A stretch of DNA of 28,961 bases from a virus: the IMG/VR virus record IMGVR_UViG_3300023174_000023, positions 1 to 28,961 of that record; one strand, 5' to 3'. Positions 1,037 through 28,961 of this stretch are shown one piece after another. The position numbers and the translations under genes are program-made. The notes under the pieces are model-generated. The model was not told the DNA's origin, searched no databases, and saw only the letters and a list, made by a program, of their open reading frames with translations. Each line of letters begins with the position of its first letter. Position 1 is the first letter of the stretch.

Positions 1037-1618
1037 TTACTTCCTCAGCCGATATGTGTAGCAATACTTGCCTGCGGTCTCGGCATACACCGCCTGCTTG
1101 CTCTCCAGTGCTTCCACTAACCTCTTAGCAAATGGCTTCAGTTCGCCTTTGTACATTGTTCGAACGGCCTTATCGTGATAGCGCTTGCCCTGGTACAAGA
1201 TGACCTTCGCTCCTGCTCGCTTACCTTCCAGTTGGAAGTTGCTCGCCTTGTAGATCGTTCCTGAATGGCCATATTCAGCGTCTGCATAACTGACCACCAC
1301 CTTGATCTGCGTGTGCTTCTTCAGCCAGCGAAGCGTCCAGCCAATGAAGTACGACTCTGTGTTCTTCGGCGTGTCATCAATGCAGCACAAGCGCCTCAGC
1401 TCGATCACCTCCTCTGGCTTGTCAGCGAACCTGCGCCACTGATTAGCCATTGCCATTCGACCGTAGAACATTGCTCCGACCATCTGCATTCCGTCGTAGA
1501 GACCGAAACAATAGTCAGCGATGCAGCCGTTGATGCTTCCTGAGTAGTGCCACTGCTCTATGAACGCTGCTACCTCTGAGCGCGGCACTGGTTCAACCGT
1601 GAACTGCGTTGCGCTCAT
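1037..1618 (-). CDS. Mom-like DNA adenine-modification enzyme (GNAT-fold)
   Basis: 193 aa. It resembles the phage Mu Mom family, which turns adenine in DNA into N6-(methylcarbamoyl)adenine and so protects phage DNA from restriction. Visible motifs in order are WHYSGSIN at residues 23-30, ELRRLCC at 73-79, a TPKNTESYF block at 83-91, SYAD at 110-113 and YGHSGTIYKASN at 116-127. The spacing and the block of N-x-x-S, SYAD and G-H-x-G-x-x-Y-x-A-x-N match my memory of Mom. AGGAGG precedes the ATG at 1618. It sits between the Rad52-like and winged-helix genes, in the early block, where DNA modification before packaging is expected. The family call is fairly firm; the exact chemical product is inferred. 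Confidence 0.75.
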   Translation of the reverse strand: MSATQFTVEPVPRSEVAAFIEQWHYSGSINGCIADYCFGLYDGMQMVGAMFYGRMAMANQWRRFADKPEEVIELRRLCCIDDTPKNTESYFIGWTLRWLKKHTQIKVVVSYADAEYGHSGTIYKASNFQLEGKRAGAKVILYQGKRYHDKAVRTMYKGELKPFAKRLVEALESKQAVYAETAGKYCYTYRLRK

Positions 1619-1637
1619 CGTGTCCTCCTGTGTTGGT

Positions 1638-1674
1638 GGCGAGAGGAGGTGGAGGTCGCCAGTCTCCTCTCGCC
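1638..1674. promoter_or_regulatory. Perfect 11-bp inverted repeat upstream of the mom-like gene
   Basis: GGCGAGAGGAG at 1638-1648 pairs with CTCCTCTCGCC at 1664-1674 across a 15-base loop. In the minus-strand RNA the hairpin lies between the Rad52-like stop and the ribosome site of the mom-like gene. There is no T-run after it, so it is not a classic intrinsic terminator. Possible roles are attenuation, an RNA-processing site or translational control of the mom-like gene. Mu mom is itself under tight post-transcriptional control. Confidence 0.6.
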
Positions 1675-1683
1675 GTAGATGAG

Positions 1684-1703
1684 GCCGTTCAGATCAGAAC
1701 GGC
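1684..1703. other. 7-bp hairpin overlapping the stop codon of the Rad52-like gene
   Basis: GCCGTTC at 1684-1690 pairs with GAACGGC at 1697-1703 with a 6-base loop. The loop contains the TGA of the Rad52-like gene. A similar hairpin with the same GCCGTTCT-plus-stop arrangement lies at 4299-4315. Confidence 0.6.
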
Positions 1704-2380
1704 AGATCCTCAAGCGTGTTCTCGCTGCGCTCAGGTTCACCAGTTGGTGCCTGCTGCGCGTTGACCCACGCAATGCTTGGCTTGCGCTTGCAGAATTGGC
1801 CGTCCGTCTTGCCACCACAGGCATAGAACGCGCTGTACGGTTTGCCAGCCTTGCTTACGCCTGCCGGCTTGAACTGCCAGGCGGTGCGGTGGTCAGGACA
1901 TTCACCCTCTGCAAAGAGCATGGCGGCGGCTACAGCAAGGTCTGGACTCAAAGGAGCAGCCTGAGGCTGCTTCACAGAATCAACGGAGACCGCCCTAGGA
2001 GCCACGGAGAGCGGCGTTTGACTGCCAGAGGTATATAGAGACCTCCCCACGCCAATCTGAGCGGCACAGCGACGCAAAGCGTCAGAGGCTGCTGACTTGT
2101 ACGGCTCGTCATCCTGAGCGCTATTTGGGTAGCCGAAGTCTTGTCGAACGGTCGTGGTGCCGTCAATGACTGCAACCAGTGTGCCGTGGACGACCTTGGA
2201 GGCAGCGTCTGCCACCTTGACCTCAAACTGCCAGCCAGCCAGACCGAGCACATCGTCAAGGCGCTGAGCTACGGCTCGCGCGTCGGCGTAGGTGTAGATC
2301 ATGCCGCCGCGTCCTGGACGCGTCTTGAGATCCGTTCCGGTGAACGGTGCGGCCAGTGCCGCTGCAATTTCCTTACTCAT
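1694..2380 (-). CDS. Rad52/22-like single-strand annealing protein with zinc motif and SSB-like C-terminal tip
   Basis: 228 aa. Residues 1-118 fit the Rad52/22 annealing domain: YTYADARAVAQRLDDVLG, then GWQFEVKV, a GTLVAVIDGTTTVRQDFG strand pair, and the signature KSAASDALRRCAAQIGVGR followed by LY. The middle is a linker. Residues 160-205 carry C-x2-H and two further Cys (ACGGKTDGQFC), a likely zinc ribbon. The last residues, NTLEDLPF, end like the acidic tip of bacterial SSB (D-D-I/L-P-F), which binds replication and repair partners. The protein probably anneals single strands made by the YqaJ exonuclease two genes upstream. Start: ATG after AGGAGG, overlapping the upstream stop by 8 bases. 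Confidence 0.8.
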   Translation of the reverse strand: MSKEIAAALAAPFTGTDLKTRPGRGGMIYTYADARAVAQRLDDVLGLAGWQFEVKVADAASKVVHGTLVAVIDGTTTVRQDFGYPNSAQDDEPYKSAASDALRRCAAQIGVGRSLYTSGSQTPLSVAPRAVSVDSVKQPQAAPLSPDLAVAAAMLFAEGECPDHRTAWQFKPAGVSKAGKPYSAFYACGGKTDGQFCKRKPSIAWVNAQQAPTGEPERSENTLEDLPF

Positions 2381-2939
2381 GTTCAGATCCTCCTAGTGTC
2401 TCGATTGGTCGCAACTGCGACGCGTGTAGGTTGAGCGAATCAAACATCGCTACAACGCCATTGAGCAACTGCTCGCCTTTCTTTACCTCATACCCCTCCT
2501 TCTTGTACTCATCCGATTGCTTGACTCCTGCAATCCACGCGCGCTGGAATCTACGAGCGTGTGGCGGACCATCACGGAGCTCTCCTTCTGCGAGCTGCAA
2601 GAAGACGAACGCGTAATAGTCACAGGTCTGGTGATCGATGATGTAGTCATAGAGCGACACCTGATGCGTCACCTGTGGCTGCACCGTATATGCCTTGGCC
2701 TTCACCTCAACGCGAAGACCGCAGACGATAAAGTCTCGGCGCGTCGTGTTGACGAACTGATACGGCATCTGGCGTTCCTTTAGCGCAGCAGCGAAGACAG
2801 CCTGACCAACGCAGCCAGTCCAGTCCGTGTTGCCTGGCGCCTTGTCGGTGCGCAGGCGCATGGAGTCTGTTGACTTGTGAGTGCGGAACATCTCCTCTGC
2901 GGCGATGATGATTGCCGGTGTGATTGGTACTTCGATCAC
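2373..2939 (-). CDS. PD-(D/E)XK-fold nuclease-like protein
   Basis: 188 aa. The order fits a minimal PD-(D/E)XK nuclease: a helix with GNTDWTGCVGQAVFAAAL (residues 36-53), D69 in RRDFIV, then E78-V-K80 in LRVEVKAK, and a later Gln/Tyr-rich helical region. No specific family is recognised. It lies between the YqaJ exonuclease and the Rad52-like gene, coupled to both: its GTG start overlaps the exonuclease stop (GTGA), and its last 8 bases overlap the Rad52-like start. A role in recombination or host DNA degradation is likely. Confidence 0.6.
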   Translation of the reverse strand: MIEVPITPAIIIAAEEMFRTHKSTDSMRLRTDKAPGNTDWTGCVGQAVFAAALKERQMPYQFVNTTRRDFIVCGLRVEVKAKAYTVQPQVTHQVSLYDYIIDHQTCDYYAFVFLQLAEGELRDGPPHARRFQRAWIAGVKQSDEYKKEGYEVKKGEQLLNGVVAMFDSLNLHASQLRPIETLGGSEHE

Positions 2940-3898
2940 GCGTCACCGTCCTTGCCGTGGACGCGGAACACGCGCGCACCTGGCTTCTCTTCTGTGAAGC
3001 GCTTGACCGCTTCCTCATAGGTTTGTGGCGCAGTGGTGCGGAGCACATCGGCAATGCTCTCCCAATCCACCTTGATGCTTGGCTTGTTCTGCTTCCATGT
3101 CGCAAGCCAACCGTGACCCTTGACGCCTTCGCCGTCACCGATGGCTTCCTTGATGGCGATTGCCATCTCCTTCAGCGCAGCGTCGGCAGCCTCAGCCTCA
3201 GCCTTCGCCTCAATGTAGAGACGCGCGATGTGATCGAGCTGCGGATCAGCTACGGCGTAGGTCTTGCTGCTCTGCGGATTTACTTCAGCGAGCGTGTCGC
3301 TGTCGTTGCCGGTCAAAGATGGCGGAGTCTTGGACTGCACCAACTCGCGGAACAGGACGGCCTTGTCAAACAGTTGAGTCTGGTAGACAGGGTCAGCCTC
3401 TACTCGCTCAATGCGGAAGACCAAGCCAGAGAGCAGTACTGCGACGTCGGCGTACTTAGCGCCAGTCACAAACATCTGCCACTGGACCTGGTCAACATAT
3501 TCAGGCGGCACAGGGAACAGCGCCCACCTACTAGAGGTTGACGTCTTGATCTCAACCAAGCCTTCAGGATCGCCAACGATGGTGCGGTCGAGCGACGCCA
3601 TCGCCCAAGGGTGCTCCTTGAGGCGCACAATGCCATTCGACTTGCGCAGCTTGGCTCCAGTCTCCAGCGTGTAGAAGTCGGCGACAGCCTGCTCAAGCAA
3701 CTGGCCGCGCTGCGCGGCTGCTCCTGCCTGCTGCTCTTCAACCTGACCAGTCAACTCCGCCCACAGTCGGTACGCCGTCTTGTATGGCGACGTGCCGTTG
3801 ATCGCGGTGATACCGGTGGCAGTGATGCCGCCCTTGCGGATCTCGAACCACTGAGGACTGCGCTGCGGTGCGTTGATGAACTCGTAGCGGCGGCTCAT
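2936..3898 (-). CDS. YqaJ/lambda-exonuclease-type recombinase nuclease
   Basis: 320 aa from the ATG at 3898, chosen because it makes an ATGA overlap with the upstream small membrane protein; the open frame extends 13 codons further. It has the YqaJ signature: QRSPQWFEIRKGGITAT (residues 12-28), a helix with E70 in RGQLLEQAV, D104 in ASLDRTI, E116-I-K118 in LVEIKT, and QVQWQM. This is a complete lambda-exonuclease active site. The enzyme resects double-strand ends 5' to 3' and feeds ssDNA to the annealing protein. The C-terminal 100 residues are helical and rich in Ala/Glu (AEAEAADAALKEMAIAIKEA), typical of the family. Confidence 0.88.
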   Translation of the reverse strand: MSRRYEFINAPQRSPQWFEIRKGGITATGITAINGTSPYKTAYRLWAELTGQVEEQQAGAAAQRGQLLEQAVADFYTLETGAKLRKSNGIVRLKEHPWAMASLDRTIVGDPEGLVEIKTSTSSRWALFPVPPEYVDQVQWQMFVTGAKYADVAVLLSGLVFRIERVEADPVYQTQLFDKAVLFRELVQSKTPPSLTGNDSDTLAEVNPQSSKTYAVADPQLDHIARLYIEAKAEAEAADAALKEMAIAIKEAIGDGEGVKGHGWLATWKQNKPSIKVDWESIADVLRTTAPQTYEEAVKRFTEEKPGARVFRVHGKDGDA

Positions 3899-4065
3899 CT
3901 GCTCACCAACCGGAATACAAGTACGCCAAGAACCCACAGCGCCATGATGGCGACGGTGAAGTTGAAGCGCTCGCGGTTACGAGCTTCTCGCTCTAGGCGC
4001 TGATAGTCGCTTACAAAGTGCGGCCGCACAACCATCTTGGGTGTGCTTTTACGATTGACTTTCAC
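3895..4065 (-). CDS. Small single-pass membrane protein (56 aa)
   Basis: GTG at 4065 is preceded by GGAGGG five bases upstream and overlaps the stop of the 28-aa gene (GTGA). A longer frame opens at 4101, but its start has no ribosome site. The N-terminal 37 residues are basic (RKSTPK, RLEREARNRERF). Then comes one transmembrane helix (NFTVAIMALWVLGVLVF) and a short RLVSR end, so it is probably a membrane-anchored cytoplasmic basic domain. Function is unknown. It is among the first genes after the early promoter, a place where host-takeover or exclusion proteins are common. Confidence 0.7.
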   Translation of the reverse strand: MKVNRKSTPKMVVRPHFVSDYQRLEREARNRERFNFTVAIMALWVLGVLVFRLVSR

Positions 4066-4148
4066 AGTGACCCTCCAATGACTAGGACGATGTAGATGCA
4101 CGCGATAAAGAGCGCGTAGCCGATACCGTCAATGATTGCTGTCCTCAT
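4062..4148 (-). CDS. 28-aa mini membrane protein, first gene after the early promoter
   Basis: ATG at 4148 follows GAGGAGG with a 5-base spacer. The product starts MRTAIIDGIGYALF and is hydrophobic from residue 4 to the end (FIACIYIVLVIGG), which makes one transmembrane helix. Its TGA overlaps the GTG of the next gene by 4 bp. Good ribosome site, coupling and hydrophobic pattern together make it convincing despite its size. It lies about 45 nt downstream of the predicted transcription start. Confidence 0.7.
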   Translation of the reverse strand: MRTAIIDGIGYALFIACIYIVLVIGGSL

Positions 4149-4200
4149 CTTGACCTCCTCGTCAGTCCAGCCGAATGGCTGTGTCCTGCCTGACATCGGC

Positions 4201-4230
4201 ATCATAGGGTCAACGCTTCGCGGCTGTCAA
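4201..4230 (-). promoter_or_regulatory. Near-consensus sigma70 promoter for the early block
   Basis: On the minus strand TTGACA (4230-4225) is followed by an 18-base spacer and TATGAT (4206-4201). The -35 box is perfect and the -10 box has one mismatch. It lies between the paired hairpins that end the late block and the first mini-gene, so it is the best candidate for the main early promoter. A second TTGACC lies inside the spacer. Confidence 0.8.
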
Positions 4231-4267
4231 CCGTGTTGCGTGAGTATCTTTTATGCAGAGTGGATAG

Positions 4268-4297
4268 CCCCTAGGTGGAGGAGGGACCACCTAGGGG
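4268..4297 (-). terminator. Strong hairpin closing the lysis/late transcript
   Basis: CCCCTAGGTGG at 4268-4278 pairs perfectly with CCACCTAGGGG at 4287-4297 (11-bp stem, 8-base loop). It stands between the last late gene and the early promoter, where a transcript end is expected. No T-run follows on either strand, so it may act as a factor-dependent terminator or an RNA 3'-end protector. Confidence 0.55.
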
Positions 4298-4298
4298 A

Positions 4299-4315
4299 AG
4301 CCGTCTAGAACGGCT
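4299..4315. other. Small hairpin over the stop codon of the 47-aa gene
   Basis: AGCCGT at 4299-4304 pairs with ACGGCT at 4310-4315; the 5-base loop holds the TAG stop of the 47-aa gene. It sits directly before the large 4268-4297 hairpin, so the RNA carries two stems in tandem. The arrangement parallels the stop-codon hairpin of the Rad52-like gene. Confidence 0.55.
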
Positions 4316-4448
4316 GCGATAAGTCCTCAAGGCTGACTGCTACCAGCAGCCGTAGGCAGACCCCACAGAGGATCTCGTCCGTAGACTCGACCTCCCACAC
4401 CCTAGCCACCATCTCGCACACCGAGCAGGTGCCGAATGGCTTAGGCAC
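4305..4448 (-). CDS. 47-aa zinc-knuckle protein (CxxC...CxxC) with LEDL-PF tail
   Basis: GTG start at 4448 with AAGGA six bases upstream, two bases after the lysin stop. The product begins MPKPFGTCSVCEM and has a second pair, CGVC, at residues 28-31, so one four-cysteine zinc site is likely. It ends SLEDLSQPF. That ending resembles the LEDLPF end of the Rad52-like protein in this genome and, loosely, the tip of bacterial SSB. As the last gene before the early promoter it could be made late or from read-through. Function unknown. Confidence 0.65.
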   Translation of the reverse strand: MPKPFGTCSVCEMVARVWEVESTDEILCGVCLRLLVAVSLEDLSQPF

Positions 4449-28375: not shown

Positions 28376-28961
28376 GATTCCTCCTCGTAGGATGACTGCC
28401 ATAGACCGTTATTCACCATGTGCTTCCGCAGGATTGCGTAGGACTGATCGGCTGTCAAGTCTGTCGTGTCGATCTGGAGGTCGTACTCCGTCTGGAGATA
28501 GCCAAACTCGGTCACATCGCTGACGCCCTGAAGGACGCCACGACGCTGTGTGCGCGCCTCGGCCGTCGCATGGACTCGGACGATGACGATGCCAGGGATG
28601 TGATGCCGGAGGTAGTGCGCCTCTAGCGGCAGTCGGACGTCATCCACCACCACAAGCCGATTGGAACTCTTGACCTTGAGGTACTCGGCGTGCCACGCCT
28701 TGATCCAGAACGACGCGTCTAGATCTCGGAGCTGCGCGCCAATGTCTTGCAGGATCTCGCGACCTGAGACCTCAATGTCTAGACCCATGCGGCGCTGGCT
28801 GTACTTCTTGCTCTTGTCGAAGTCCTCTCCGTAGCCAAGAGCCGCCACTGTGCGGATCGTCTCCGCGATTGGCAGGATCGTGTACGGATGCACGCGACGC
28901 TCCTCCAGCATTTGCGCGAGCGTTGACTTACCGGAGCCTTGCGGCCCTACGAATGCGATGT
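28372..28961 (-). CDS. Deoxynucleoside monophosphate kinase (dNMP kinase), lacks only the first 4 bases
   Basis: The complete gene is 197 aa and begins at the GTG found at 131 in the other copy of the overlap. The product has the P-loop GPQGSGKST, then AALGYGEDFDKSKKYSQRRM, LDASFWIKAWHAEYLKV, LVVVDDVRLPLEAHYLR (Walker-B-like strand) and a lid-type region (TEARTQRRGVLQGVS), similar to T4 gp1-type kinases. It phosphorylates dNMPs to dNDPs for phage DNA synthesis. In an early block that also holds a Mom-like enzyme it may serve nucleotide supply only, since there is no sign of a modified-nucleotide pathway. Confidence 0.78.
   Translation of the reverse strand, partial: IAFVGPQGSGKSTLAQMLEERRVHPYTILPIAETIRTVAALGYGEDFDKSKKYSQRRMGLDIEVSGREILQDIGAQLRDLDASFWIKAWHAEYLKVKSSNRLVVVDDVRLPLEAHYLRHHIPGIVIVRVHATAEARTQRRGVLQGVSDVTEFGYLQTEYDLQIDTTDLTADQSYAILRKHMVNNGLWQSSYEEES
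28835..28961. repeat. 127-bp direct terminal repeat, right copy
   Basis: Exact copy of 1-127. Removing one copy gives a 28,834-bp circle in which the dNMP kinase gene is whole. See the left copy for the reasoning. Confidence 0.93.

Follow-up and report, generated by a model that had tools for sequence, protein, structure and literature searches.

A conserved SSB-tip-like C-terminus on the Rad52-like annealing protein of a phage clade

Annealing proteins and SSB tips in described systems

Proteins that interact with bacterial single-stranded DNA-binding protein (SSB) are reported to do so through pockets that hold the terminal phenylalanine of the SSB C-terminal tip (SSB-Ct), its carboxylate and aspartate side chains (PMC10164576). 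The linker ahead of the tip is described in the same report as a spacer, the sequence of which is unimportant and the minimum length of which lies between 11 and 20 residues. Here we describe an SSB-Ct-like ending on a Rad52-like single-strand annealing protein (hereafter, the annealer) that is encoded in a stretch of viral DNA of 28,961 bases, the IMG/VR virus record IMGVR_UViG_3300023174_000023 (hereafter, the window). The annealer belongs to a known family, that of the Rad52-like proteins, and has an unusual terminal module. Like the SSB-Ct of Escherichia coli (DDDIPF; PMC10164576), the tip of the annealer is acidic, ends in a C-terminal Pro-Phe and follows a disordered linker of variable sequence. 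Unlike the bacterial tip, it is carried by a Rad52 fold instead of an OB-fold SSB and contains fewer acidic residues, and its docking is predicted from its sequence.

Several phages combine an annealer with an SSB. In phage 80alpha, staphylococcal Sak and Ssb are both reported to be required for full phage replication and for concatemers (PMC5499656). For phage HK620, it is reported that deletion of the SSB tip NDYPPF lowered recombineering tenfold and abolished the binding of Sak4 to SSB-covered single-stranded DNA (ssDNA) (PMC5928155), and erf/rad52-ssb modules have been described in Firmicutes phages (PMC8093625). In all of these systems, as in the window, the annealer and an SSB-type function would reside in one recombination module. 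However, as the modules are described in these reports, a distinct SSB encoded beside the annealer bears the tip, whereas in the window it is on the annealer and an SSB gene was not found. The Rad52 family or fold is common to the window annealer, ul36 Sak, P22-like Erf, human RAD52 and yeast Mgm101, but the C-termini of ul36 Sak and P22-like Erf do not have the tip. An artificial chimera, PriB-SSBc, has been described in which the C-terminal part of SSB is placed on another DNA-binding protein (PMC8509808), and the phage annealer would be its natural counterpart. Among the open-licence papers searched, as judged by title or abstract opening, we found no annealing protein with an SSB-like tip.

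The annealer and its C-terminal tip

The annealer gene (positions 1694-2380, minus strand, as are all features given below except the terminal repeats) encodes a protein of 228 amino acid residues (aa). The protein matched PF04098 (Rad52_Rad22) with an E-value of 5e-12 and 46.4 bits (cut-off, 20.3), and this cut-off was also exceeded by the proteins of L258, L254 and L253 (related records are designated L or G with a number). PHROG 1097 (Erf-like annealing protein) matched with an E-value of 1e-18. At E-values up to 0.1, only the Rad52 and Mgm101 models matched, and the OB-fold SSB family PF00436 was not among them. For structural comparison, we used an AlphaFold2 model derived from 55 sequences with a predicted local distance difference test score (pLDDT) of 77.6; an earlier model from 33 near sequences (pLDDT, 44) was set aside. 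Residues 1-126 of the model aligned with human RAD52 (Z = 13.3 over 123 residues; root-mean-square deviation [rmsd], 3.7) and with Sak of phage 80alpha (Z = 10.8 over 102 residues; rmsd, 2.4), and the core aligned likewise with yeast Mgm101 (Z = 12.2 over 120 residues). Foldseek likewise assigned the model to the Rad52 fold (E-value, 9e-7), and a sequence search of the PDB returned nothing useful. The product of 1694-2380 is, by these computations, a member of the Rad52/Sak/Erf family with a modelled Rad52 fold, and annealing activity is predicted.

The model divides the annealer into four parts. The Rad52 annealing core (residues 1-118; 2027-2380), for which the pLDDT of 10-residue blocks as far as residue 110 is 79-97, is joined by a disordered linker to a small C-terminal domain that is predicted to be folded (residues 159-209; 1754-1906; pLDDT about 76-87), in which the spacing of Cys and His, examined by eye, looks like that of a zinc ribbon. 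One Cys of this second domain is absent in L162, L256 and L257. Behind it lies a disordered tail (residues 210-222; 1715-1753) that varies in length and sequence among relatives, and the C-terminus, SENTLEDLPF, ends with the SSB-Ct-like tip LEDLPF (residues 223-228; 1697-1714). The annealer accordingly has a flexible linker ahead of the tip (pLDDT about 48), and this linker is swapped between subgroups of relatives. A search of named phages with the C-terminal 78 residues found nothing, and these residues could not be assigned convincingly to a Pfam or PHROGs family. A search with a pattern of the second domain, from which the tip was excluded, gave 11 hits, comprising Rad52-like genes in L162, L163 and L171 and a different small tipless protein in the other eight. 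The module KPAGxSKxTGKxYxAFYAC of the second domain is also found in small tipless phage proteins (L164-L170 and L172).

The tip was conserved throughout the relatives of the annealer, which were fetched using patterns that contained no tip residues. The first scan yielded 80 loci, 79 of them complete, and all 79 genes encoded the ending [LIF]E[DSE]LPF. When both scans were taken together (148 loci), LPF was terminal in 147/147 complete genes, corresponding to 73 different proteins; one locus cut by a contig end was dropped from the near-relative counts. Duplicate loci of one contig were collapsed by identical protein in the 148-locus set and in the set from outside the clade described below, while the first-scan set and the near relatives of the 47-aa protein were left uncollapsed. 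The same tip stood behind two unrelated linkers, in 45 proteins of 228-230 aa and in 28 proteins of 241-242 aa. Two further scans added the divergent records L254-L257 and L259-L261, and the annealers of the divergent records, 39-72% identical to that of the window, ended in LPF in 10 of 10 cases. Further, L162, L256 and L257 retained the tip despite the missing Cys of the second domain. Alignment of 41 representatives showed that L226, P227 and F228 were invariant, while residues 221-222 varied freely; column 223 was occupied by L, I, F or G, and column 224 by E, S or G. The last nine residues contained two, three or four Asp or Glu residues in 4, 33 and 4 of the representatives, respectively. 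As judged from these alignments, the tip of the Rad52-like protein is a real, clade-wide and strictly conserved feature. By computation it was also independent of its surroundings, being retained across replacement of the linker, loss of a second-domain Cys, exchange of the neighbouring exonuclease and loss of the hairpin around the stop codon. A second annealer copy in record G006, which is 60% identical, likewise ends in LPF.

Outside the clade, the tip was not found. Seven named distant relatives and the window protein were aligned, and the best 80 of at least 600 candidate stretches, ranked by a tipless query, were then examined; a Pro-Phe ending was found in none of the 67 different proteins of these 80 loci (79 complete; one row dropped). 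The tip was also absent from all 12 named Rad52, Erf and Sak proteins inspected (seven phages, then two more phages and three plasmids) and from five RecT-type annealers adjoining a YqaJ gene (one per phage, five phages). In a tree of 55 sequences built from the core alone, with the tip columns omitted, the tip appeared as one change on a branch with support of 100/100. In ul36 and Paenibacillus SV21, a separate SSB adjoining the annealer ends in DDDLPF, and the separate SSBs of Arthrobacter phages Abba and Brent end in SEPPF and AEPPF, respectively. One Rad52-like protein outside the clade (L182, match from 2501) ends in ALDDEIPY, which is close to the classical SSB tip, and its sequence suggests a possible independent gain.

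Other functions of a short hydrophobic and acidic C-terminus were considered. Sliding-clamp binding motifs are of the QLxLPL or QLxLF type, and the hydrophobic spacing of LxxLPF somewhat resembles them. However, in the 41 representatives the Gln-Leu pair was absent from columns 223-224 and the motif was strictly C-terminal and accompanied by acidic residues, and we consider it highly improbable that the tip binds the clamp instead of mimicking SSB. Alternatively, LPF may be a degradation signal by which ClpXP keeps the level of the annealer low. A C-terminal LPF alone is reported to make GFP a ClpXP substrate in certain strains of Streptococcus mutans, but according to the same report GFP was not degraded in this way in E. 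coli, S. gordonii, S. sanguinis or three other S. mutans strains (PMC5143411). Further, such a signal needs LPF only, whereas the clade keeps acidic residues as well in 41/41 representatives. A role as a degradation signal is quite unlikely in our view.

The end of the annealer gene also has a nucleic acid feature that bears on the tip. The stop codon is located in the loop of a hairpin (1684-1703) with a 7-bp stem, in which GCCGTTC and GAACGGC enclose the loop TGATCT. Such hairpins are rare in the window, as a stem of at least 6 bp surrounds the stop codon at 3 of 45 gene ends, two of which belong to the annealer and to a 47-aa protein considered below. It is conceivable that the codons and not the peptide are conserved, such that the hairpin fixes GCCGTTC and the protein ending is a by-product. 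Consistent with this, a stem of at least 6 bp was present in 41 of the 54 distinct stop contexts of relatives, and the tip Pro codon was CCG in 15/15 diverse members. However, the 13 contexts without the stem all encoded LPF, and synonymous and stop-codon swaps in relatives (TTT, CCC and TTG; TAA, TAG and TGA) left the residues of the tip unchanged. The by-product explanation was therefore rejected as the whole story, and we regard conservation of the codons in place of the peptide as very unlikely. A second strong hairpin follows the stop hairpin, between the annealer and Mom genes, and the region containing both (1625-1720) had an RNA fold z of about -5. In YTGCCGTTY, at the 3' end of the annealer gene (window 1697-1705), synonymous sites were conserved beyond codon usage, even where the stop hairpin was missing.

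Neighbouring genes and genome of the window

The presumed partner of the annealer is a YqaJ/RecE-like exonuclease (2936-3895), which matched PF09588 (E-value, 6e-32) and PHROG 434 (E-value, 1e-66). In all 54 near loci whose upstream DNA exceeded 2.6 kb, YqaJ was located upstream of the annealer. Between the two genes lies that of a 188-aa protein (2373-2939) without a Pfam or PHROGs match, which was present in 46 of these 54 loci. The two components of lambda, Exo and Red beta, are held together, and the tip could similarly dock the phage's own exonuclease, a possibility that the constant position of YqaJ in the near loci favours. However, a YqaJ homologue was not found upstream of the annealer in L253, L254 and L255 (5.0, 1.7 and 2.4 kb of upstream DNA, respectively), where a gene of about 287 aa took its place (L253, 4144-5004; L254, 833-1702; L255, 1540-2403). 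Examined by eye, the protein of about 287 aa has a PD-(D/E)XK-like nuclease motif and a Cys-rich end; two of the three proteins were scanned, and neither matched a family of Pfam or PHROGs. Where this gene replaced YqaJ, the tip persisted (endings IGEELPF and DLESLPF). These three records weakened the proposal that the tip is tied to YqaJ, and we consider docking to the exonuclease unlikely.

Upstream of the recombination genes, a 47-aa Cys-rich protein (4305-4448) ends in VSLEDLSQPF in the window. The initial annotation had noted the ending NTLEDLPF on the annealer and SLEDLSQPF on the 47-aa protein, and both are present. It had further regarded both as SSB-tip-like, possibly by convergent mimicry that would recruit or block host proteins such as RecO or PriA, and had named poor conservation of the terminal Phe and the acidic residues as the observation that would speak against this. 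For the annealer, these residues were conserved as described above, and mimicry of the SSB tip fits the result. For the 47-aa protein the proposal failed: relatives in the near loci ended in QPS (57/57) and divergent relatives in PS (3/3), such that a terminal Phe was found in 0/60. In the nearest relatives, L012 and L018 (98% identical over residues 1-46), TCC stands where the window has TTC. Because all 60 relatives end in PS and the nearest carry TCC, the comparison indicates that the terminal Phe of the 47-aa protein is a private mutation of the window and not an SSB tip, and an SSB tip on this protein was rejected. Deletion of the terminal Phe is reported to abolish the docking of SSB (PMC10164576), and the relatives ending in PS are therefore not expected to mimic SSB-Ct. 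On the basis of the Pro and Phe frequencies of the window, 0.064 Pro-Phe endings would be expected by chance among 45 genes, and two were observed (probability about 0.002); two such endings were thus unlikely a priori, but conservation tells the two cases apart.

The initial annotation had also reported that the 3' ends of the two genes were alike and had suggested a duplicated 3' cassette. Both ends do contain CTTGAGGA, and in both the stop codon follows CCGTTC, but their similarity was at background level. The best local match between them was CTTGAGGA itself (8 bp; score, 16), and when the gene ends of the window were compared in 990 pairs, 68 scored at least as high; a duplicated cassette was rejected on this basis. 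Further, CTTGAGGA was not fixed among the relatives of either gene. The two stop-codon hairpins of the initial annotation were confirmed, each with a 7-bp stem, with the qualification that in the hairpin of the 47-aa gene (4299-4315; AGCCGTT, loop CTA, GACGGCT) the last base of the stop codon is already in the stem. This hairpin persisted in relatives ending in PS. It is followed by a strong terminator-like hairpin without a T run (4268-4297), which is kept in relatives with changed bases, and by a promoter-like site, TTGACA-18-TATGAT (4201-4230), which has 11 of 12 consensus bases, although the total number of such sites in the whole scan was at the level of shuffled sequence. The 47-aa gene was upstream of yqaJ in 57/57 loci containing both. 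Because the strong hairpin and the promoter-like site separate them, the 47-aa gene and the annealer gene appear to be transcribed as parts of separate units.

The early region of the window is on the minus strand, and its genes follow in the order of transcription: the 47-aa gene, the hairpins, the promoter-like site, two small open reading frames (ORFs), the YqaJ exonuclease, the 188-aa protein, the annealer, a Mom-like DNA modification protein (1037-1618), a 144-aa protein (593-1027; weak replication-initiation match) and endonuclease VII (128-592). The Mom-like gene was downstream of the annealer in the window and also in L253. Of the 61 near loci whose downstream DNA exceeded 0.9 kb, however, just 2 had it, and this distribution suggests a recent gain or frequent loss.

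The window carries an exact terminal repeat of 127 bp (1-127 and 28835-28961, no strand assigned), the two copies of which are identical. Given this repeat, the window most probably represents an entire phage genome of 28,834 bp that was assembled as a circle (alternatively, it may be terminally redundant). On reading the ORFs, a dNMP kinase gene appears to span the joint of the circularised window. Exact terminal repeats were also present in G044 (123 bp) and G047 (127 bp), and the three genomes of 27-29 kb are probably complete. Record G006, a contig of 37 kb, contains two differing early recombination regions (1468-3122 and 28488-30803) that flank a single structural region; its copies of the exonuclease and annealer are about 57-60% and 89-90% identical to those of the window, and it is either a chimeric assembly or two joined phages. 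A sequence search against genome contigs gave a single match (residues 121-161, 39%) outside the Rad52 domain, which was disregarded, and found no prophage or host.

Possible role of the tip

Neither the window nor any of 47 related records (33 of about 80 first-scan records and 14 others) gave a match to the SSB family PF00436, whereas the controls matched; the absence of SSB rests on this single family model. The model of T7-type SSB, PF21265, also gave no match but is uninformative, as it gave none in the control genomes either. DnaB was found in none of 8 records searched and DNA polymerase A in none of 7, the window being included in both searches. The window, G044 and G047, the genomes that are probably complete, gave no match to SSB, DnaB or DNA polymerase A.

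We consider it fairly probable that the annealer of a two-component phage recombination system carries a working SSB-Ct-like tip that docks host SSB-interacting proteins. In this scheme, the Rad52-like protein would be the annealing half, usually paired with the YqaJ exonuclease, and the clade would have gained its acidic ending, with LPF at the C-terminus, on a short disordered tail that follows a small folded domain. The annealer would coat and anneal the single strands made by the exonuclease, and its tip would dock host proteins that possess an SSB-Ct pocket; PriA, RecO, RecQ, RecG and RecJ are candidates. Recombination intermediates of a phage without a recognisable SSB, DnaB or DNA polymerase A would then be passed to host repair and replication restart. 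A broader proposal, in which the Rad52-fold annealer doubles as an SSB-type hub through a grafted tip and supports recombination-based replication without an SSB or replisome of the phage's own, is put forward tentatively and with some doubt.

The same conservation of the tip would be expected if it were a competitive decoy that fills the SSB-binding pockets of host proteins and keeps them off phage DNA, and this alternative fits all of the sequence data equally well. However, a tip on an annealer is expected to be on phage ssDNA, and in records that lack the replication families searched, recruitment would be more useful than blocking. The latter is an argument only, and on it we regard a decoy as rather unlikely.

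Besides the single model behind the absence of SSB, several points weigh against docking of host proteins by the tip. We infer the binding of the tip, the identity of a host partner and recruitment rather than blocking from sequence. The annealer tip has two to four acidic residues and no DDD run, and Ser is at position -4 in 19 of the 41 representatives. Fragments, certain or possible, make up most of the related records, and many of the loci are almost identical to one another. The nearest terminases, at about 30%, are from phages of Streptomyces, Arthrobacter and Corynebacterium. Further, CCG, which encoded the tip Pro in all of the diverse members, accounts for 26% of the Pro codons of the window, and the tip Leu codon was CTG or TTG only. 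Because the Pro codon is fixed and the Leu codon restricted in this manner, an unexplained constraint on the nucleic acid (DNA or RNA) may act beside that on the protein.

In well-studied phages, the annealer and the tip-bearing SSB are two cooperating genes, whereas in this clade it is the annealer that invariably bears the tip. If the tip works as proposed, it would be a natural graft of a bacterial repair-hub signal onto another protein, and it would help to account for the entry of a 28-kb phage that has no recognised replisome into the replication restart of its host. The match between an annealer and the SSB of its host limits the portability of annealing proteins in genome editing, and a working tip would also serve as a guide for choosing such proteins.

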